A stretch of 20,254 bases of DNA from a bacterium (GTDB lineage: Bacteria; UBP6; JAFGXH01), in NCBI GenBank assembly GCA_027064085.1, contig JAMOQH010000024.1, positions 1-20,254 on the forward strand, in the 5' to 3' direction. The position numbers and the translations under genes were made by a program. Positions 2,100 through 20,254 of this stretch are shown here, piece after piece; the stretch's first letter is position 1; each line of letters opens with the position of its first letter. Under the pieces are notes generated by a model, which saw only the letters and a program-made list of their open reading frames with translations, searched no databases and was not told the origin of the DNA.

Positions 2100-2184
2100 T
2101 TCTATCCAATTATCATTAATTGAAAATAATAAAAGATTATGATATAAAGCATAATAATTTTATCTTTTCTATAATTGGATAGAA
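2100..2184. repeat. 14-bp inverted repeat pair enclosing a promoter
   Basis: TTCTATCCAATTAT at 2100-2113 is the exact reverse complement of 2171-2184, with 57 bases between. Inside are weaker nested pairings: AAAAG (2131-2135) with CTTTT (2164-2168), and ATTATG (2136-2141) with CATAAT (2150-2155). The element could fold as one long hairpin. It might act as a terminator for the gene on the left, be a small palindromic or MITE-like repeat, or be the arms of an invertible promoter segment. No clear target-site duplication flanks it. Confidence 0.7.
2120..2148 (+). promoter_or_regulatory. Probable promoter of the redoxin lipoprotein
   Basis: TTGAAA (2120-2125), 17-base spacer, TATAAA (2143-2148): each box matches the sigma70 consensus at 5/6. 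Transcription would start near 2155, inside the inverted repeat, so the left arm would be outside the message and the right arm in its leader. Confidence 0.55.
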
Positions 2185-2198
2185 AACATGGAGGCTTA

Positions 2199-3455
2199 AT
2201 GAAAAAAATATTAGTAATGATTTTATCTTTAACTGCATTATTGTATTCTTGTGCAGGAGAAGAAAAAACTTGTACAGAAACAGGTTGTGATACAGGAAAA
2301 CATTGTGTTGTTGAAAAAAATCTATGTGTAAAAGATTGCACTCCTGAATACTGTGCACCTATTGGTGAAGTTTGTAATCCTACAACAAAAGAATGTGAAA
2401 CATCATGTAAAGAAACAGGATGTGAAACAGGTTTTATTTGTGATGAAACAGAAAATAAATGTGTTGCATCTTGTTTAGAAGTACAGTGTAACGATGGTTT
2501 ACATTGTAATACTACAACTAAATTATGTGATATTAATTGTACTGATTCTGATTGTAGTGCTAACAATAATCAAGTTTGTGACCCTGAAAGTCATATTTGT
2601 GTAACGAAGGCAGATACATTCTGTACAGAAGACTCTTGTATTGAGGGCTCTCACTGTAACACAACAACTGGTCATTGTGTTGGTGGTTGTGCAGATATAG
2701 AATGCCCTAATGGTGATGTTTGTAATCCTAATTTATTAAGATGTGTTCATGCATGTACTCCGGGAGTATGTAGAGGAGATAGTTTTTGTAATGTTGAAAA
2801 TAAATTATGTGAATCATTCGTTGATTATCCTACTGAACCTTATGGAACAGAAGAAGGAAATACAATAAAAGATTTATCATGGACCGATACAGATGCAAAA
2901 ATAATTTCACTAAAAAAATTACATAGTATGTCTATAAAAACTGGATATCCAAGAGTAATTATTCTTGTGGAATCCGCAGGTTGGTGTGATCCATGTAGAC
3001 AAGAAGCACCTGCACTTAGCCAATTTTTTAAAGATACTAGATTGCCAAATGGACAAGAACGAATTGCTGTAATTCAAACAGTTGTAGATGATAATACTGC
3101 AGATGGAGTTATGTCTAATCCTGATGAATTTGCTAAAAGTTGGAAAACTCAATATGCAATAGAATTCCCTGTGGTAGGAGATAATGGAAAATTTGCCTCC
3201 GAAAATGGATTTGATAATGGTCTCCCATTACTTGAAAATTATAATGCATCTGGAAGTATTCCTTTTAATTTAATAATCAATGCCCAAACAATGAAAATTG
3301 TAGGATTAGAAAACGGTACAGATGAAAACCTTACAGGATTAAGAGTAAATGTTAGAGAAATAGAAAAAGAAATATTATGTGCTCCTCTAAATTGTGATGC
3401 TCAAGGCTCTTACTGTATCTATAAAGGCGATGAAGGTACTGCTAAGTGCAACTAA
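2199..3455 (+). CDS. Cysteine-repeat lipoprotein with thioredoxin-like domain
   Basis: Predicted lipoprotein of 418 residues, start ATG 2199 with GGAGG at 2190-2194; a TTG eight codons upstream (2175) lacks a ribosome site. The signal peptide ends LLYSC (Cys18). Residues ~25-205 hold eight tandem four-cysteine repeats of the form C-x4-C-x5/7-C-x5/6-C-x3 (for example CTETGCDTGKHC). Residues ~225-390 form a TlpA/thioredoxin-like fold: a hydrophobic strand VIILVE, active site WCDPC (Cys263, Cys266) and a candidate cis-proline in GSIPFN (Pro355). A last cysteine motif (CAPLNC...) ends the protein. Thioredoxin-like proteins with CxxC sites exchange thiols and disulfides; with disulfide-rich repeats attached, a role in folding or redox care of surface proteins is an inference. 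Its stop codon overlaps the end of the convergent permease gene by four bases. Confidence 0.85.
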   Translation: MKKILVMILSLTALLYSCAGEEKTCTETGCDTGKHCVVEKNLCVKDCTPEYCAPIGEVCNPTTKECETSCKETGCETGFICDETENKCVASCLEVQCNDGLHCNTTTKLCDINCTDSDCSANNNQVCDPESHICVTKADTFCTEDSCIEGSHCNTTTGHCVGGCADIECPNGDVCNPNLLRCVHACTPGVCRGDSFCNVENKLCESFVDYPTEPYGTEEGNTIKDLSWTDTDAKIISLKKLHSMSIKTGYPRVIILVESAGWCDPCRQEAPALSQFFKDTRLPNGQERIAVIQTVVDDNTADGVMSNPDEFAKSWKTQYAIEFPVVGDNGKFASENGFDNGLPLLENYNASGSIPFNLIINAQTMKIVGLENGTDENLTGLRVNVREIEKEILCAPLNCDAQGSYCIYKGDEGTAKCN

Positions 3456-5433: not shown

Positions 5434-6324
5434 TTATTTTTCATTTGTAATATTTAGAACTTTCCAATCCACACCACCACGATTATCAATTGCAATTATA
5501 TAAATATGGTAAGTATCTACTTCACTTTTTAATGCAGTATTAAAAGGATTTTCATCTAAATCGCTAAGTTTTTCATCATGTTTTTGGTCAGTATAATAAT
5601 ATTTTATATCACCAAGAGTTGATTTCCATACCAATACTATACTTTCAAAATCTTTTTCTCCTTTTGGAGTTTTAATTTCATCAAATGAATCACTAGTAAC
5701 TTCTGCCTTAAAAATATTATCATTTTTATTATTCTCTTTATCATTTTCTCTTGCTTTTAAAGATATATCGCTTGATGTTAATTCTTCTCCATTTAAATAT
5801 ATGGATTTTATTTTAGGATTATGATTCATAATAGGCATAGAATCTTGGACTATTTCAACTGTTTTATATGAAAACCTAAAAAGGTCGCTTTCCAATCCAT
5901 TTCCCGCTTCATTCATCATTGTATCTTGACATTTTTGCATATCAGCTTCACAAATAGTAAACAAAATATAAAGCTTTTTATTTTTTGCTCCTTGAGAAAG
6001 CACATCAGCAGGAACAGTAAAATGAAACTCATTGTTATCAATTGTAGGAAGTCCAATAATACCATCTTCCGACATACACGATTTAAAACCTGAATTATCA
6101 CTAGGATTACATAAAAACCAAATAGTATGAAATTCATTACTATAATCTTCAGGATGTCCAACTAATGAATTTGCAATAATTACATCACCTGGATGAGCTT
6201 GAGGTTTGTCGACTTTTATTGCCAAAACTTCTAATTTATTAACTTTATTTGCCTTTGATTTAGTATCTTCACCACAAGAAGGTAATAGTATAAATAATAT
6301 TGTTAAAATAATAAAATATTTCAT
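5434..6324 (-). CDS. Putative lipoprotein of the receptor operon
   Basis: Protein of 296 residues with a lipoprotein signal peptide ending FILLPSC (Cys17). After a short polar linker comes LEVLAIKVDKPQAHPGD and a beta-rich region. I recall this style of opening (LxVLAIxxxPPExxPG) from uncharacterised lipoproteins of Myxococcota and relatives; no function can be assigned. The remaining cysteines (in WFLCNPS, KSCMSE, TICEAD and KCQD) could form disulfides. Its ATG shares one base with the receptor stop codon (TAATG), and its ribosome site GGAGAG is made by the last receptor codons, so translation is probably coupled. The tight link suggests a periplasmic or outer-membrane partner of the receptor. 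Confidence 0.75.
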   Translation of the reverse strand: MKYFIILTILFILLPSCGEDTKSKANKVNKLEVLAIKVDKPQAHPGDVIIANSLVGHPEDYSNEFHTIWFLCNPSDNSGFKSCMSEDGIIGLPTIDNNEFHFTVPADVLSQGAKNKKLYILFTICEADMQKCQDTMMNEAGNGLESDLFRFSYKTVEIVQDSMPIMNHNPKIKSIYLNGEELTSSDISLKARENDKENNKNDNIFKAEVTSDSFDEIKTPKGEKDFESIVLVWKSTLGDIKYYYTDQKHDEKLSDLDENPFNTALKSEVDTYHIYIIAIDNRGGVDWKVLNITNEK

Positions 6325-9300
6325 TAGAACTCTCCTTTTATTCCTATTGATGGGAAAAATGGTATCCCTTCCACTTTACTTGATTCAGAATAATCATAAT
6401 TATATGAAACACCTTCTTGATTTGCATAATTTGTAACATTTTGAATATCTAAATAAAAAGAAAGCATCCATGTTTCAAATTGCCATATTTTATCTACTCT
6501 TAAATCTAATTGGAAAAATGCATCATTTCTTACTGAATTTGGCTCTCCATATATAGGAGAATATGTTGTTGAATCAGCATTATATATTGAATTAACAATA
6601 GGAGTTTTAGGGCTACCTGTCACATATCTTAATCTTGTACCAATTTGCCAACCATTACTTATCTTATAAGATGCTATCATTGTTAAAATATGTGTTTGAT
6701 CATATCTAAATAAAGTCCAATCATCCCAATCGTGGTCTTTTCTTTCTGCTTTCATAATGGTATATGATATCCAACCAAAAAATTTACTACTCATATTATG
6801 TCTTAAAAAAATCTCTGCACCATAAGCTCGACCTCTACCATCATTATTAAAATTCTCATTAACTATTTCACCATCAATAATAACTTTTTTAGTACTTGTT
6901 ACAGCTAAATCTCTTTGATCATTATAAAATAATTCAAATGACATATTAATAAAATCAGTAAATCTATATTCTGTACCAAGAGTATATTGAATAGAATATT
7001 GATTTTTTAAATCTAAGTTTCCAAATTTCCTATCAGTTTGATAATCTTGCGGAGGTTGATGAAATTGACCTATGCCACCTTTAAATAACAGTTTATTATT
7101 AAGCGTATAAATTGCACTAATTCTAGGATCAAGAGTTAATCTATTATTTTCTGAAGAATAATCAGATCTTAATCCAGTAATCAATCTAAGTTGCCCAAAT
7201 TCAGAAATCAATTCAGTATAAACGGCAGGAAGAAAATAAAACATTGAATTCTTATCATAAATTCTTCCATAATCACTAAGAGAACCCGTTTCTCCCGTAT
7301 TATGATTAGGCATTGAATCAGGAACAGTAAATTCATAAGTTGCCCAAGCAAGCCAATTATCCATACCTAAATTTAAAGTAAAATCTTTATTAATTTTATA
7401 GATAAAGTCTTCCCTCATTGTTGTAATATAAGAAAGTCCATTAATATCAATAAAATCAGAAATTTTAAATTTTTGACTTAAATATTGCAACCCCATAGAA
7501 AATTTAGATTTCATCTTTTTATTTATTTTATAGTCCCAAGCAATTATATTATCAATAAAAAATGTTGACATAGAAAATTCACCTGATAAACCAGGGTCAC
7601 CAACAGGTTTATCAAAAAACAACTCAAAATTATCACTGGAACCAAAGTGAGTAAAACTTAATTGACTCTTTTTAGAAAAATTATAATCATATTTTAGTTG
7701 CCAGTCATAATAAACCGGTAATGCTCTTGCCACATCATTCATACTATCCGGTAAAATAAGAGGCAATATAGTATCAATATAAGACCTTCTAAAAGCAACC
7801 GCAACTGCTGATTTATCATCAATTGGGATATCAATCATTGCAGAAGTATCAATCAAATCAACATCAAGATATCCATGTATATTTTTTCTATCCTTTTTCG
7901 TTTTTAACTTTTTAGTAGTAACATCAACTATTCCACCTAAAGCTCTACCATACTTTGCTGAATAATTGCCTGGATAATATGAAACATCTTGTATTAATTC
8001 TGAATTAAAAACAGAAGTTAAACCGCCAAAGTGATACAACATTGGAACAAAATGACCATCTATAAAAACCCTACTATCAAGACCATTATTACCCCTGATA
8101 ATTAAGGCTCCACTAAGGCCCCCGGCTCTTGAAACTCCAGGTAAATTTTGAACAACTTTTAAAGCATCTCCATTCGTACCAGGTATTTTCATTATTTCTT
8201 CCACAGAAATAGTTTCTTTGGTTACTTCTTTTTTAGCCTTCTTTTTTATAACAGTTAATTCATAAGGATTTAATAAATCTTGTGGAAGTGATATTTTAAT
8301 ATTAACCAACTTACCTTTTTTTATATTTTCTTTAGTTTCATAGCCTAAATATTTATCTTTAGGATCTATGATTATTTTATAGTCCCCATTTTCTAGATTT
8401 TTAAATAGAAATTTACCATTTTCGTCTGTAACTGTTTCAAATTCATCATCAGTTTCACTTATTAACCTAACCGTAACATAAGACAAGGGTTCTCTGTTTC
8501 CATAACCTAAAATAACACCTCTTATTGATTCATAATCTGCTTTTTCAATAATTGCCGTTTTTTCTTCTTTTGCTTTTTTTATTTCTTCTTTTGTGGCCTC
8601 TTTTTTATCTTTTATGACAAAATTATACTGATAGGTAATTCTTACAGGAACTTTTTTATCTTTATATTCGGCTGGAGTAAATTCAAATTTCTTAACTGCT
8701 TCAACAGCAGCTTTATTAAAATTTTCATTATCAGATTTTATAACTCCAACATTTTTTACATTACCATTTTCATCAACATCAATGAATAAAGTTACAATGC
8801 CTTCAACTTCTTGTTTTCTTAATTCTTCAGGATATTTTGCCTCTACAAATCTCTTTAAAATAGGATTTTTTGTTAATACTAGTGCTTCTTTCTTAACTAT
8901 TTCCTTCTTAACTATTTCCTTCTTAGCTATTTCCTTCTTAGTAGGAGACACAGCGGTGCTGATGTCCTTACTACGCTTATCTTCGTCTTTTGGACGAGTC
9001 AACGCCTCGTCCTTACTACGCTTATCTTCGTCTTTTGGACGAGTCAACGCCTCGTCCTTACTACGCTTATCTTGGTCTTTTGGACGAGTCAACGCCTCGT
9101 CCTTACTGCGCTTATCTATGGCTTTTTTTTCTTTTTTATACCATTTATTAGATTTCACTTTATCAATTTTTGTATTATCTGCTGAATTATCTAATTTAAA
9201 ATTATATGTATATATTAATTTTACTGAAATGGGAATATCTTTATATTCTGCAGAAGAAAATTTAAATTTATAAATTCCCTTTTTTATAGAGGATTCAAAA

Positions 9301-9515
9301 GATTTATCCGTAGATTTATAAAAACCATAAGATTTTATCTTACCTTTTGATGTTAAATTAATAAATAATTTTACTTTTCCTTCTTTTTTAGAAGACTTCA
9401 TTGTTTTAGGATACAAAACCTTACCAACTTTTGTAATCTCAGGTTGTTTAGATAATTCTAAGCCAAATAAGCTTAATGATGACAATAAAATCAAAAATTT
9501 AATTATTCTACTCAA
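6324..9515 (-). CDS. TonB-dependent outer-membrane receptor with two N-terminal TonB C-terminal domains
   Basis: Protein of 1063 residues. The start is TTG 9515: AGGAG lies six bases upstream and a signal peptide (MSRIIKFLILLSSLSLFG) follows at once; the longer TTG at 9536 has no ribosome site. Order: TonB-C-like domain 1 (~24-107, degenerate); a charged linker (~108-210) with the KDEALTRPKDE array and KKEIV repeats; TonB-C-like domain 2 (~212-300, with AKYPEELRKQEVEGIVTLF and KKFEFTPAEYKDKKVPVRI); a carboxypeptidase-regulatory-like beta domain (~331-415); the plug (~420-545, ALKVVQNLPGVSRAGG, LIIRGNNG, GRALGGIVDVTT); and a beta barrel ending in Phe (GIKGEF), typical for outer-membrane insertion. 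Such receptors import bound substrates using TonB; the substrate is not evident. It heads the operon with a lipoprotein, a redoxin and FetAB-like genes. Confidence 0.9.
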   Translation of the reverse strand: MSRIIKFLILLSSLSLFGLELSKQPEITKVGKVLYPKTMKSSKKEGKVKLFINLTSKGKIKSYGFYKSTDKSFESSIKKGIYKFKFSSAEYKDIPISVKLIYTYNFKLDNSADNTKIDKVKSNKWYKKEKKAIDKRSKDEALTRPKDQDKRSKDEALTRPKDEDKRSKDEALTRPKDEDKRSKDISTAVSPTKKEIAKKEIVKKEIVKKEALVLTKNPILKRFVEAKYPEELRKQEVEGIVTLFIDVDENGNVKNVGVIKSDNENFNKAAVEAVKKFEFTPAEYKDKKVPVRITYQYNFVIKDKKEATKEEIKKAKEEKTAIIEKADYESIRGVILGYGNREPLSYVTVRLISETDDEFETVTDENGKFLFKNLENGDYKIIIDPKDKYLGYETKENIKKGKLVNIKISLPQDLLNPYELTVIKKKAKKEVTKETISVEEIMKIPGTNGDALKVVQNLPGVSRAGGLSGALIIRGNNGLDSRVFIDGHFVPMLYHFGGLTSVFNSELIQDVSYYPGNYSAKYGRALGGIVDVTTKKLKTKKDRKNIHGYLDVDLIDTSAMIDIPIDDKSAVAVAFRRSYIDTILPLILPDSMNDVARALPVYYDWQLKYDYNFSKKSQLSFTHFGSSDNFELFFDKPVGDPGLSGEFSMSTFFIDNIIAWDYKINKKMKSKFSMGLQYLSQKFKISDFIDINGLSYITTMREDFIYKINKDFTLNLGMDNWLAWATYEFTVPDSMPNHNTGETGSLSDYGRIYDKNSMFYFLPAVYTELISEFGQLRLITGLRSDYSSENNRLTLDPRISAIYTLNNKLLFKGGIGQFHQPPQDYQTDRKFGNLDLKNQYSIQYTLGTEYRFTDFINMSFELFYNDQRDLAVTSTKKVIIDGEIVNENFNNDGRGRAYGAEIFLRHNMSSKFFGWISYTIMKAERKDHDWDDWTLFRYDQTHILTMIASYKISNGWQIGTRLRYVTGSPKTPIVNSIYNADSTTYSPIYGEPNSVRNDAFFQLDLRVDKIWQFETWMLSFYLDIQNVTNYANQEGVSYNYDYSESSKVEGIPFFPSIGIKGEF
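8891..8935 (-). repeat. 15-base tandem repeat in receptor linker (KKEIV units)
   Basis: Three 15-base copies (8891-8905, 8906-8920, 8921-8935; one base differs in the third) encode repeated KKEI(V/A) residues, with partial copies on both sides. It lengthens the charged linker between the palindromic array and the second TonB-C domain. Copy number could vary by slippage in steps of five residues without breaking the frame. Confidence 0.85.
8947..8966 (-). repeat. Hairpin next to the palindromic array
   Basis: GACACAGC (8947-8954) pairs with GCTGaTGTC (8958-8966), with one bulged base and a three-base loop. It abuts the array at 8961 and encodes ISTAV on the minus strand. Like the array it is richer in G and C than its surroundings but unrelated in sequence. 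It may belong to the same inserted segment. Confidence 0.5.
8961..9125 (-). repeat. In-frame palindromic tandem repeat, 45-base units, copy A
   Basis: Three 45-base units (8991-9035, 9036-9080, 9081-9125) plus a partial unit (8961-8990) encode D-K-R-S-K-D-E-A-L-T-R-P-K-D-E on the minus strand. Each unit has arms GGACGAG and CTCGTCC around a seven-base loop (8992-9012, 9037-9057, 9082-9102). The codons (GCG, CGT, GAG, GAC, AAG, TTG) are G/C-richer than the host gene. Two 38-base stretches (8977-9014 and 9022-9059) are exact reverse complements of 20090-20127 in the last gene of the window. Confidence 0.92.
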
Positions 9516-9542
9516 AGTATACTCCTTAAATAACAATATTTT

Positions 9543-15856: not shown

Positions 15857-17272
15857 ATGACTAAAACAATTCTAGTGATAGATGATGATGATAGCTTTAG
15901 AGAGCTACTATCAACCTTTTTAGAAGATGAAGGCTTTAATATCATAAAATTATCTAATGGCGAAACTGCAAATAAAGTTTTTATGGAAAATGATATAGAT
16001 TTTTTTATAATTGATGTTTTGCTTCCAAGAAAAAATGGATTTAAAGTTGTTGAAGAGTTAAAAGATGCAATGGACTTTGTTGATATTCCAATTGTTATGA
16101 TAAGTGGTTTTTATAAAGGATATAAACATAAGCAAGATGCTATAGGAAACTTTGGAGCATTAGATTATCTTGAAAAACCATTTGATTTTAATGCCGATTT
16201 AAAACCAATATTAATTAAAGTCTTTCAATCAGAATATCCAACACCAAGCTCTAACCAAGAAGGTGCATTAATAAATGATGATGATCTATTTGACTCACCT
16301 CTTGATATTCCCAATACACCACCTCTTCCCAATACACCACCTCTTCCCAATACACCATCTCTTTCAGATATACCTTCAATGAAAGATGAAGATGACTTTA
16401 TTGATTTGTCAGATTTAAATATAGATCAAGAAATACCAGATTTTACTCCAATGAAAAAAGATTTAAATCAAATAGATTTTGAAGAAAAATCAGAAGTAAC
16501 TACAGCATATATAGAAATGCTTAAAGAAAGTAGTAAAAAAATTGAAGGAGAGTTTAATTTAAGAATTGGTTTAGAGAATTCATTACCTGAACTATTAGCA
16601 AAACTATATAAATTAAATTTAAAAGGTGAACTATACATAAATGATGAAATAAATAATATAAAAAAAATTATCTATATTGAAAACGGAATTCCTGTTTTTA
16701 TTAAATCAACTTTAGTATCTGAATGCTTAGGTAATATACTTGTCAAAGAAAGATTTATTACAACCAAAGACAGAGACTTGTCCCTAAGTCTAATGAAAAA
16801 AACTAGAAAACCACAAGGTAAAATACTTAGAGAAATGAAATGTATTTCATTAGAAAATTTAAAATATGGATTAACAAAACAATTAGAAACAAAACTTTTT
16901 GAAATATTCACTTGGAAAAAATTTAATTATAAATTTAAGAAAATAAATACAAAACTTAATATACCTCCAACAATATATGGAACAGACTACTCAATATCAT
17001 ATTTGATTTATAACGGAATCATGGAAGGATTTAGTATTGATTTTATTAAAAAATTTTATAAAAGAGATGGCAAAAAAAGAATTAAACATATCCCTAATTC
17101 TATTTTTGAATTTAAAGATGGTGAACTATTTGATGATGAACTTGATTTCTATAAAACCTTAGATAGAAATGAGTCCTTTTATCATATAGTAAAAAGAAAT
17201 CCATCAGAAAAAGAAAAAATAGTTAAACAAATAATGGCTTTTTACTATCTTAATATGATTGATTTCACTTGA
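15857..17272 (+). CDS. Response regulator with receiver and probable PATAN (DUF4388) domain
   Basis: Cytoplasmic protein of 471 residues, start ATG 15857 after GAGG (15848-15851). The receiver domain (~1-125) is intact: acidic DDDD at 9-12, phosphoacceptor Asp53 in IIDVLLPRKNG, Ser83 and Lys107 (LEKP). A low-complexity linker (~130-215) contains PNTPPL repeats. Residues ~230-360 (LPELLAKLYKLNLKGELYI, IIYIENGIPVFIKS, ECLGNILVKERFIT) read like the DUF4388/PATAN domain found in deltaproteobacterial and cyanobacterial regulators; the C-terminal ~110 residues are not assigned. There is no DNA-binding helix-turn-helix, so output is probably through protein contacts. No histidine kinase is encoded nearby. 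A lipoprotein gene follows 43 bases downstream. Confidence 0.85.
   Translation: MTKTILVIDDDDSFRELLSTFLEDEGFNIIKLSNGETANKVFMENDIDFFIIDVLLPRKNGFKVVEELKDAMDFVDIPIVMISGFYKGYKHKQDAIGNFGALDYLEKPFDFNADLKPILIKVFQSEYPTPSSNQEGALINDDDLFDSPLDIPNTPPLPNTPPLPNTPSLSDIPSMKDEDDFIDLSDLNIDQEIPDFTPMKKDLNQIDFEEKSEVTTAYIEMLKESSKKIEGEFNLRIGLENSLPELLAKLYKLNLKGELYINDEINNIKKIIYIENGIPVFIKSTLVSECLGNILVKERFITTKDRDLSLSLMKKTRKPQGKILREMKCISLENLKYGLTKQLETKLFEIFTWKKFNYKFKKINTKLNIPPTIYGTDYSISYLIYNGIMEGFSIDFIKKFYKRDGKKRIKHIPNSIFEFKDGELFDDELDFYKTLDRNESFYHIVKRNPSEKEKIVKQIMAFYYLNMIDFT
16310..16363 (+). repeat. 18-base tandem repeat (PNTPPL)
   Basis: Three 18-base copies (16310-16327, 16328-16345, 16346-16363, the last with one or two changes) encode PNTPPL, PNTPPL, PNTPSL. 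They form a proline-rich flexible linker between the receiver and output domains. Near-identity of the copies points to recent slippage. Confidence 0.9.
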
Positions 17273-17296
17273 TTTTTTTATAAATTACGATAAAAT
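17269..17296 (+). promoter_or_regulatory. Possible promoter of the third EGF-like lipoprotein
   Basis: TTGATT (17269-17274), 16 bases, TAAAAT (17291-17296, 5/6), placed between the regulator stop and the lipoprotein ribosome site. The lipoprotein could therefore be transcribed alone or by read-through from the regulator gene. Confidence 0.4.
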
Positions 17297-17315
17297 ACAA
17301 TTTTCAGGAGGTTTA

Positions 17316-19376
17316 ATGAAACTGTTTTTACTTATATTACTTACTTCTTTTTTATTCTTATCATGTGATAATGAGAAGAATAATGATAAAAAAGAAGACA
17401 ATAAATGTTCCAAAACAAATATTACAGGTACATGTGAAAATGGTAAAGTCTGTACCGATGGAGTATGCGTAACACCCGAAACTTGTAAAAATGAAGATTG
17501 CCCTACAAACTCCGAATGCGTAAACAACAAATGTGAATGTAAAACTGGTTATATTAATTTTGAAAATGTTTGTATTGCAGATATGTGTATTTCCCCTTCA
17601 CCATGTACAGAAACTAATAAAACTGTTTGTAAGCCTCAAAAAGATGCTCCTTATTTTACTTGTGAATGTGATGAAAATTTTCACGCAGAAGGAGATAAAT
17701 GTATTACAAATGAAGGAAATCCATGCCACCCTAATCCATGCTTAGATACTTCTCATACTTCTCAACATAAAACAAGATGCCTTTTAGATTCTCAGGATAA
17801 TACAAAATTTACATGTAATTGTGATGTAAGTAATGATTACTATGAAGATAATGGTATTTGCTGTAAACAACTTTCTCATAATGAGGGTGGAACTTGTGTC
17901 TGCAATGAAAGCTATATAAAAAATCCAGCAGGAGAATGTGTTCCTGTTTGTACAGAAGATACAGTTGAAGGCTTTAACGGATATTGCGAAGATACTAATA
18001 AAATATGTGTTCAGGGGGTTTGTGTTGACAATAAATGTATTGGAGTTCAATGCCCTGAAAACAGTACATGCAGTACTCAAAATGGTCAAGCAGAATGTTA
18101 TTGCAACACTGGTTTACACATGGACAACAACTTATGTTGTATGGAACATGCCTCAAATATAAACAATGAATGTAAATGTGATACAGGTTATACCTTTACA
18201 GAAGGCAAATGTCTTCCCGAAGAAGGAAATCCATGTGAGGCAACCCCATTCCCATGCAATGAAGAACTACATAAAAACAAATGTGTTGTTGATGATTCAA
18301 CAACAGGATTTCACTGTGAATGCAACATTGGTTTCACTTTAGATAATCAAACAGGAAAATGTAAATTAACTGTTGTAGATACCTGTCCAGACGACTTAAT
18401 TTGCTTAAATGACTACTGTGTTGAATCCGGAGATAGAGCAAACGAACAATGTTTAACAGATGATGACTGCCATGAGTTTAATGCATCTGCAACAAGCACC
18501 TGCAATCCCGATGTAGTGGGCGGTGTTTGTCTTAATTGTCAAACATCTTCTGATTGCCCTGCAAATACATTTTGCGAAGAAACATATCATACATGTAAAA
18601 ATGAATGTGACTCCGACTCTGACTGCCCAAGTGGAAGATGTTCTATAAGATTAAATATGTGTTTAATTGCAACATGTACCACTGATGATGATTGCCAACA
18701 TGGCTCTGTTTGTATTAAAGATAATGCCTCATCAAGTGGTATGTGTAAAAGAATACCATGTAATGAAACAGCATGTTCTGAATTTAATCAAAACGGAACC
18801 TGTGAAGCTGGTAAAACATGTATTTATGGTAAATGTGTTGATAGCTGTACACCCAATCCATGTACTTCCTTACCATTTAAAACAATTTGCAATAACAACA
18901 ATGGTGTAATCTCATGTTCATGCGAGGATGGATATACAGAAAATACCGAAGGAAGATGCGAGCCTAATACCGTATCAGATTGCCCTGTAGGTTTTACATG
19001 TGAAAATGGATACTGTGCTGATAGAAATGATACAGGTTTTGTATGTGCAAATGATAATGATTGTGGAACTCATACTTCATGTTCAACACCAATGACACTT
19101 CCTGCTGGTAAATGTACTGGTTGCACTGTTAAAGCTGATTGTCCTCATGAAGGAACTGGCGAAGATGTATATAACCCATTTGAATGTATTGCAGGCTACT
19201 GTATAAAAACATGTAATGGTCAAGATGACTGTAATTCAGGTATGGAATGTGCTCCAGTAGGTAATTTGGGAACAGTTTGTAAATCGAAATCCTGTACAGT
19301 TTCAAGTGATTGTCCTTCGGGTTATATTTGTGACGGAAGCTCTCTTAAATGCGAAAGAATTCCATGTTCTCAGTAA
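17316..19376 (+). CDS. Cysteine-rich EGF-like lipoprotein
   Basis: Predicted lipoprotein of 686 residues. ATG 17316 was chosen because AGGAGG (17306-17311) precedes it and a lipoprotein signal peptide ending LFLSC (Cys17) follows; the longer frame from 17259 lacks both. The mature part is a chain of disulfide-type modules: EGF-like units (CECKTGYINFENVC, CECDENFHAEGDKC, CYCNTGLHMDNNLCC, CECNIGFTLDN, CSCEDGYTENTEGRC), two longer units opening EGNPC, and Dickkopf-like four-cysteine units such as CTTDDDCQHGSVC and CTVSSDCPSGYIC towards the end. Two similar blocks, CPDDLICLNDYC and CPVGFTCENGYC, suggest internal duplication. No enzyme domain is seen. It resembles the 152-2041 protein in architecture but lacks its tryptophan module. 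Cell-surface binding is a likely but unproven role. Confidence 0.87.
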   Translation: MKLFLLILLTSFLFLSCDNEKNNDKKEDNKCSKTNITGTCENGKVCTDGVCVTPETCKNEDCPTNSECVNNKCECKTGYINFENVCIADMCISPSPCTETNKTVCKPQKDAPYFTCECDENFHAEGDKCITNEGNPCHPNPCLDTSHTSQHKTRCLLDSQDNTKFTCNCDVSNDYYEDNGICCKQLSHNEGGTCVCNESYIKNPAGECVPVCTEDTVEGFNGYCEDTNKICVQGVCVDNKCIGVQCPENSTCSTQNGQAECYCNTGLHMDNNLCCMEHASNINNECKCDTGYTFTEGKCLPEEGNPCEATPFPCNEELHKNKCVVDDSTTGFHCECNIGFTLDNQTGKCKLTVVDTCPDDLICLNDYCVESGDRANEQCLTDDDCHEFNASATSTCNPDVVGGVCLNCQTSSDCPANTFCEETYHTCKNECDSDSDCPSGRCSIRLNMCLIATCTTDDDCQHGSVCIKDNASSSGMCKRIPCNETACSEFNQNGTCEAGKTCIYGKCVDSCTPNPCTSLPFKTICNNNNGVISCSCEDGYTENTEGRCEPNTVSDCPVGFTCENGYCADRNDTGFVCANDNDCGTHTSCSTPMTLPAGKCTGCTVKADCPHEGTGEDVYNPFECIAGYCIKTCNGQDDCNSGMECAPVGNLGTVCKSKSCTVSSDCPSGYICDGSSLKCERIPCSQ

Positions 19377-19561: not shown

Positions 19562-20254
19562 ATGAAAATTTTAATGTTCTTATTAATTTCAGTTTCAGTT
19601 TTAGGCTATTCAAGCAAAGCTTTTGAAGATATAGTTAATTCAGATAAATCTGATACAGAAAAAGTTAAAGCAGTACTAAAACTAGACAAAGAGCTAAAAC
19701 AAGATGCTCAAAAAATAAATAATTTTAAAAAGAAATATATAAAAAAATATAAAAAAATTGCTATAGAAACCATGAAAAATAAGAATAAAAGTAATTATGA
19801 TAAAATGAAAGCATGGGAAGACTTTACTAATATTTCAGAGGGTACTAAATTTTCTAAATCTGGTGCAAGAATGGTTTATAAATTCTCTAAAAAAGCCCTC
19901 CGAGACTTGGATAAAGAACTAAAAACAGAAGAACTAAAAATTGATAGAAATTACAAAAAAATAATTTATATATTAGATAAAATATTATCTCTTAAATTGA
20001 ATAAAAAGAAAATAACTAAATACCAAAAAAGAAGAAATCTCTATGCAAGTAAGCTCAAATCCACTAAAACAGAAAGTAAAGATAAACGTAAGGACGAGGC
20101 GTTGACTCGTCCAAAAGACGAAGATAAACGTAAGGACGAGGCGTTGACTCATCCAAAAGACAAGCAAAATCAAGACAAAAAAGATAAAATGGCTAAAAAA
20201 GAAGATACTAAAAAAGTAACATCACATTTATCCCATAAGCACCCTCTTGCAGGA
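19562..20254 (+). CDS. Secreted lysine-rich protein, incomplete at the window end
   Basis: Open frame of 231 codons without a stop, cut by the window edge. ATG 19562 follows GGAGGAG (19554-19560). A signal peptide (MKILMFLLISVSVLGYSSKA) is likely cleaved after SKA; there is no lipobox cysteine, and no cysteine at all so far. Residues ~22-170 are helical and very rich in lysine and charge (KINNFKKKYIKKYKKIAIE, KKALRDLDKELKTEELK). From ~174 the protein holds two KRKDEALTRPKDE units, DNA copies of the repeat in the receptor linker, then more charged residues and KVTSHLSHKHPLAG at the edge. I recognise no family. If the receptor is a guide, the part beyond the repeat may be a separate domain joined by this linker. 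Confidence 0.78.
   Translation, partial: MKILMFLLISVSVLGYSSKAFEDIVNSDKSDTEKVKAVLKLDKELKQDAQKINNFKKKYIKKYKKIAIETMKNKNKSNYDKMKAWEDFTNISEGTKFSKSGARMVYKFSKKALRDLDKELKTEELKIDRNYKKIIYILDKILSLKLNKKKITKYQKRRNLYASKLKSTKTESKDKRKDEALTRPKDEDKRKDEALTHPKDKQNQDKKDKMAKKEDTKKVTSHLSHKHPLAG
20081..20164 (+). repeat. In-frame palindromic tandem repeat, 42-base units, copy B
   Basis: Two 42-base units (20081-20122, 20123-20164) encode D-K-R-K-D-E-A-L-T-R-P-K-D-E and a variant with H for R. Each carries the arms GGACGAG and CTCGTCC around a seven-base loop (20092-20112; in 20134-20154 one right-arm G is A). Bases 20090-20127 equal the reverse complement of 8977-9014 and 9022-9059. The units lack one serine codon (AGT) present in the receptor copies, which explains 42 versus 45 bases. 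Confidence 0.92.

Follow-up and report, generated by a model that had tools for sequence, protein, structure and literature searches.

The stretch of DNA analysed here (20,254 nt, hereafter the window) contains two genes that each carry a tandem array of the same short palindrome within their coding sequence. The first encodes a TonB-dependent receptor-like protein in which Pfam recognizes a TonB_C domain (residues 233-307), a carboxypeptidase-regulatory domain (CarbopepD_reg, 338-423) and a Plug domain (439-536); its array corresponds to residues about 143-195, in the linker preceding the TonB_C domain. The second encodes a secreted protein and is open at the contig end. The palindromes are referred to as REPs below, and the features are as follows.

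6324 to 9536, minus strand: TonB-dependent receptor-like ORF of 1,070 amino acids (ORF prediction and Pfam), host of the first REP array
8964 to 9126, minus strand: three units of 45 nt, combining a REP with 24 nt of linker, that encode KDEALTRPKD(E/Q)DKRS (direct repeat family)
8992 to 9012, minus strand: REP hairpin copy 1, sense strand GGACGAG-GCGTTGA-CTCGTCC, with foot GTAAG (pattern search)
9037 to 9057, minus strand: REP hairpin copy 2, the same 21-nt palindrome (pattern search)
9082 to 9102, minus strand: REP hairpin copy 3, the same 21-nt palindrome (pattern search)
19562 to beyond 20254, plus strand: ORF of a secreted protein that runs off the contig end and hosts the second array (ORF prediction)
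20079 to 20161, plus strand: two 42-nt units encoding DKRKDEALTRPKDE (direct repeat family)
20092 to 20112, plus strand: REP hairpin copy 4, with the same sequence as those in the receptor gene (pattern search)
20134 to 20154, plus strand: REP hairpin copy 5, with a single base change, CTCATCC (pattern search)

An earlier note, made from the letters of the window alone, had described a tandem unit of 42-45 nt with a 7-bp stem and a 7-nt loop in both genes, and both arrays (8964-9126, minus strand; 20079-20161, plus strand) conform to this description. The arrays have a 45-nt stretch in common at 98% identity; the sharing reported in the note is real, and the exact run, given there as 38 bases, measures 40 nt on the two sense strands (GTAAGGACGAGGCGTTGACTCGTCCAAAAGACGAAGATAA). 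Both genes read the palindrome in the same sense frame, as DEALTRP, again as the note had it. Its remark that the flanking protein sequences look unrelated holds as well. The window part of the second ORF has no Pfam match; the ends of its contig (C24) and of contig C72 overlap by 126 identical nt, and the ORF continues on C72, where it matches AhpC-TSA, Redoxin and Thioredoxin_8. This redoxin/thioredoxin-domain protein has no domain in common with the receptor. Upstream of the 126-nt identity (window 20120-20254 against C72:13020-13155) the REP arrays of the two contigs differ, possibly because strains vary in the number of repeats or because a contig end is chimeric. Receptor orthologues in two sister-genus genomes are 44-55% identical; in one, the linker has in that place a KQEATEA repeat of unrelated sequence, and this part of the other is masked. 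A separate 15-nt tandem repeat (KKEIV/A, 8886-8940) adjoins the REP array in the receptor linker. The window also encodes three large cysteine-rich EGF-like lipoproteins (140-2041, 2175-3455 and 17259-19376).

The exact palindrome, allowing up to two mismatches, has 34 matches in the 3.65-Mb genome and none for a reversed control, and the degenerate core GAYRAGKC-RNY-GMCTYRTC (GAYRAGKCRNYGMCTYRTC), allowing one mismatch, has 83 matches per strand against 2 for its reversed control. In a genome of 27% GC such differences show that the window palindrome is not a product of chance, and the motif extends well beyond any one protein family. Early matches already fell in the same peptide frame in unrelated ORFs and included stem variants such as GATAAGGC...GCCTTATC. 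A near-identical pattern had no matches in 60 other genomes, two of them from the same family and all from outside this bacterium's genus. Judged by these sequence searches, the REP family appears restricted to this genome, with the window arrays as two of its loci. The census combined pattern searches with an unbiased 224-kb sample of 20 contigs, in which a generic stem-loop search returned three palindromes, two of them members of this REP family, compared with none in Markov sequence.

Most copies outside the window have an uninterrupted stem of 8-9 bp and a 3-nt loop. The hairpin with a 7-bp stem and 7-nt loop, correctly described for the window, is thus an asymmetric form and not the family norm. 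Likewise, the tandem unit does repeat, but the dispersed element is smaller and consists of the hairpin plus a foot. Of 61 elements, 52 have at least one GTA[AGC] foot within 7 nt, and 11 have a foot on each side, against a background of 3.6% per foot; strict GTAG feet are a minority, and GTAA, GTAC and degenerate feet are common. The double-foot form is 29 nt long (GTAGRGAYRAGKCRNYGMCTYRTCYCTAC), and full forms read GTAGAGACAAGGCAATGCCTTGTCTCTAC or GTAGGGATGAGTCGGTGACTCATCCTAC. CGTC occurs in this family only inside the stem, where other copies have CATC, TATC or TGTC. Among 28 distinct cores, from which matches with fewer than 6 of 8 pairs had been filtered beforehand, 95.1% of the cells of the 8-bp stem are paired. 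Double-change stem cells number 32, against 15.0±4.0 after shuffling (0 of 500 shuffles reach this value), and sliding the register abolishes pairing. The search pattern lets the variable stem positions vary independently, so pairing was not imposed by it.

Thirty of the 35 REP loci fall within ORFs of 100 or more amino acids, and 27 of these 30 use the frame GAY RAG KCR NYG MCT YRT; these counts rest on predicted ORFs in one fragmented metagenome-assembled genome, and several loci are not independent. A conservative count, which drops duplicates, paralogues and one chance match and moves one leader to the intergenic class, leaves 24 of 30 loci genic and 23 of 24 in the main frame (P = 2e-10 against one third). 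The chance match, C95:8501, is a GGIHGDEA stretch of a peptidase-like ORF and has no foot. The leader, C144:21593-21835, was reclassified from genic: four REPs in 75-nt tandem lie directly upstream of a sufC-like ABC ATPase gene, apparently in its 5' leader. Coding density in the sampled contigs is 92%, so the REPs do not clearly avoid genes. By contrast, of 40 GTAGGGGC double-foot palindromes in four other genomes, only 14 lie in ORFs, a number inflated by spurious long ORFs in GC-rich DNA; the difference in genic share has P = 8e-6, or 2e-4 with conservative counts.

The earlier note had pointed out that the frame used is the one that avoids stops. Indeed, whichever allowed variant of the 29-nt double-foot consensus is taken, the main frame contains no stop on either strand. 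The second frame is always closed by the foot's TAG, and the third stays open in 67-83% of variants. Stop avoidance alone predicts about 57% of copies in the main frame; the observed share exceeds this (P about 1e-4 for 27/30 and 3e-5 for 23/24), which indicates a further frame bias, plausibly acting against a more hydrophobic reading. Spacings between copies within one ORF are multiples of three in 26 of 26 cases. With the chance match left out, all 11 asymmetric hairpins, about 9 of them independent, have G..A on the sense strand.

The hosts amount to about 24-30 different gene loci, nearly all read in one frame and with the REP in a linker, in line with the note's proposal of a mobile or copied palindrome that inserts in frame. 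Hosts confirmed by Pfam include FtsK, DnaX, CheA, TilS, an ABC-F-like ATPase and FliK, as well as a Ser/Thr kinase, a calcineurin-like phosphoesterase, TPR proteins, an RDD protein, an AraC-type regulator and a GAF protein. The inserts lie between or beside Pfam-matched domains, for example at residue 297 of FtsK (between 4TM and alpha), at residue 292 of CheA (between Hpt and dimerisation) and at residue 551 of the ABC-F protein (preceding the C-terminal domain). The single exception is the calcineurin-like metallophosphoesterase, with its insert in a loop inside the domain. Two paralogous metallophosphoesterase genes (C174:21073 and C141:87049) carry the same REP and a second palindrome, CAGGGCA..TGCCCTG, in one insert inside the domain. 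Homologues free of the insert were also found: TilS in two sister-genus genomes (41-42% identical) lacks it, leaving an alignment gap of about 13 residues, and one paralogue of the transposases described next is empty too. By default, we take the inserts for a selfish element that is tolerated and gives the host protein an extra charged, disordered stretch, and assume no benefit to that protein.

The genome encodes four paralogous REP-associated tyrosine transposases (RAYTs). Three of them, on C192, on C185 and at 61.5 kb of C182, contain in-frame palindromes between the PNHxH motif (PDHxH in one) and the Tyr motif. The C192 protein has seven, namely six RD[KN]ALPYP units and one DEATPRP, and the other two have one palindrome near each end of the insert. 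In the fourth, at 24.6 kb of C182, the HuH-Tyr distance is 55 residues with no insert, making it an empty-site paralogue. The NCBIfam model REP_Tyr_transpos matches this empty paralogue with E = 1e-21 and 77 bits, just short of the cut-off of 80, and a REP-bearing one with E = 2e-15. Pfam PF01797 recognizes the empty paralogue above cut-off; that it misses the RAYTs with REPs is probably due to interruption of the domain by the inserts. The top-ranking structure by fold is 4er8, the complex of a RAYT with a REP hairpin. In the AlphaFold2 model of the C185 protein, most of the core has pLDDT above 90, in two halves, and the insert, in the predicted disordered loop between the HuH and Tyr motifs, is near 50. 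A different palindrome overlaps the 3' end of an IS200-like Y1 transposase gene (C32:4316-4612) that lies among type I restriction-modification-like genes.

A wider set of RAYTs was collected by protein search with this genome's own RAYT; an NCBIfam search of 242 genomes gave mostly other RAYT groups. This type is present in 63 of 290 genomes, and the matches mostly break at the same HuH-Tyr loop. Of 20 RAYT genes taken from other genomes, 19 contain in this loop a palindrome of at least 8 bp, compared with 0.42 expected from shuffled loops; two have one elsewhere in the gene, and 15 of the 20 show the GTAG/CTAC tag by a strict check. The pattern GTAGGGGC-N6-26-GCCCCTAC is found in 31 of the 63 genomes that have this RAYT, compared with 22 of the 227 that lack it (Fisher P = 5e-11), and the palindrome copies listed for four genomes (G168, G230, G242 and G028) lie in or beside RAYT genes. 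The sister genus (G001 and G002) has its own REP family, AGTTGGGATTGAAATWGATTCAATCCCAACT, with one in-frame copy inside a RAYT gene and four other exact copies outside long ORFs, which suggests that the in-gene habit of REPs is not automatic. The association of RAYTs with REPs is a correlation, and mobilisation by the RAYTs is inferred.

The receptor and redoxin genes have about 20 nt in common outside the hairpin, so whatever passed between them involved more than a bare REP. The 42-45 nt similarity in the window is therefore that of a REP plus linker, copied between lysine-rich linkers. Recombination or gene conversion between such linkers, with no direct part for the transposase in the exchange, could by itself have made the arrays alike. 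This would account for the roughly 20 of the 40 exact bases that lie outside the hairpin and for the downstream flank, CCAAAAGAC(A/G)A..., that recurs in the receptor, the redoxin gene and a third gene encoding a TPR protein (C56/C116; 88% of 25 nt against the redoxin gene). It would also suit the redoxin gene as it stands on C72, with receptor-type 45-nt units, a form that is either a variant within the population or the product of a chimeric contig end. However, it leaves unexplained the 20-odd other loci with unrelated flanks, the structure-conserving stem changes and the palindromes in RAYT loops. We hold recombination to be a serious but less than even prospect as the explanation of the arrays, and it can be true of the receptor/redoxin pair and yet be secondary to the spread of the REPs.

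The other explanations that we weighed are far less probable. Were DEALTRP a functional peptide selected in many proteins, with the palindrome as a by-product of its codons, the dominance of one frame and the excess over stop avoidance would follow. Yet the encoded peptides are highly diverse (DKAMPYP, DESVTHP, DEAMPRL) and base pairing is nonetheless conserved, with compensatory changes on both stem arms; copies also occur outside genes, one gene reads another frame (GRGVDSS), and the hosts include cytoplasmic DnaX and TilS as well as outer-membrane receptors, so that this explanation is very improbable. A main role as mRNA hairpins in stability or attenuation, the peptide being incidental, fits the covarying stems and the four tandem REPs just upstream of the sufC-like gene. 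We nevertheless consider it improbable, as most copies lie deep in long ORFs, where a short hairpin of 8-9 bp has no evident regulatory position. Chimeric joins or contamination might be suspected from the many copies at contig ends (C24, C72, C56, C116 and C141) and from the disagreement between C24 and C72 upstream of their overlap. Such an excess is expected, since repeats break assemblies. The majority of copies lie inside contigs, within intact ORFs that have conserved domains on either side of the REP; an assembly artefact is the least credible of these explanations. We consider it highly likely that the sequence shared by the window genes belongs to a species-specific GTAG-type REP family of about 80 copies, probably moved by RAYTs.

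The name REP denotes an extragenic location, and the location of classical REPs of the E. coli type is not what we find, with 30 of 35 loci (24 of 30 conservatively) genic. In its other tested features the element is of the GTAG-tagged REP/RAYT group 4 kind. Among the features listed by Di Nocera et al. (2013, PMC3733652) for the GTAG-tagged superfamily, most REPs are intergenic and some units are intragenic, the most intragenic being those of O. terrae (GTAG) and R. conorii (CGTC). As there, the present REPs are short tagged palindromes in many copies, some inside ORFs. Their stem of 8-9 bp, loop of 3 nt and length of 29 nt with feet fall within the superfamily's 20-40 nt and 5-13 bp stem, the 83 matches per strand against 2 in the control attest dispersal, and the foot is of the same type, with strict GTAG only one variant of the GTA[AGC] seen in 52 of 61 elements. 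Unlike the superfamily as described there, 80-86% of the loci lie in ORFs, with one dominant frame, a comparison of described features rather than of the consensus sequences of its 24 families.

For TnpA-REP subclass 2.4, which is RAYT group 4, Quentin et al. (2018, PMC6006769) describe double-foot REPs and also REPs that interrupt the transposase gene in frame between HuH and Y. Here too, feet occur at both ends and REPs lie in frame between HuH and Y, within a variable peripheral loop, in 3 of 4 own paralogues and 19 of 20 from other genomes. Agreement extends to the HuH and Tyr motifs, the family and the fold (NCBIfam, PF01797, 4er8), a likeness of architecture rather than of tree position. 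In contrast to subclass 2.4, the same hairpins also run in frame through about 25 unrelated genes. The earlier note's comparison with Rickettsia palindromic elements, of different sequence, is fair in principle: as cited in PMC3733652, those are palindromes in frame in many unrelated protein genes. They differ in sequence and in their CGTC tag, of which the present family has no unpaired form, having a GTAR foot instead, and a plausible dedicated transposase is present here. PARCEL, a 25-residue amphipathic domain (Roske et al. 2010, PMC2996958), likewise consists of dyad-symmetric coding repeats that occur in tandem in different genes, whereas the palindrome described here encodes 7 residues of a charged, disordered linker, in a unit of 14-15 residues and of different composition. 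The intragenic, one-frame habit is thus the unusual part, the RAYT-loop architecture having been published already.

The likely movers of the REP family are the RAYTs of the same genome, HuH/Tyr single-strand nucleases. A RAYT would cut the hairpin and copy it as single-stranded DNA into new places, and genic insertions would survive only if they kept the frame, introduced no stop and fell in a linker or loop. The REP-plus-linker unit may then have been amplified in tandem, in frame, as a secondary step, and exchanged between lysine-rich linkers by recombination; alternatively, two REPs may have been mobilised together with their spacer, giving the 42-45 nt unit. Directly shown are a dispersed, structure-conserving family, cognate hairpins in RAYT genes, homologues free of the insert, a strong bias to one stop-free frame and tandem copies always spaced by multiples of three. 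More tentatively, and with a probability well below even, this might be a gene-adapted REP lineage, with a stop-free frame on both strands and one hairpin orientation, that has spread from transposase ORFs into the linkers of essential proteins and is re-linkering the proteome. A REP family that lies mostly in genes and in one frame, beside transposases that themselves carry its hairpins, offers a clean system for studying protein linkers derived from mobile DNA, and one in which it can be asked whether RAYTs still move REPs.
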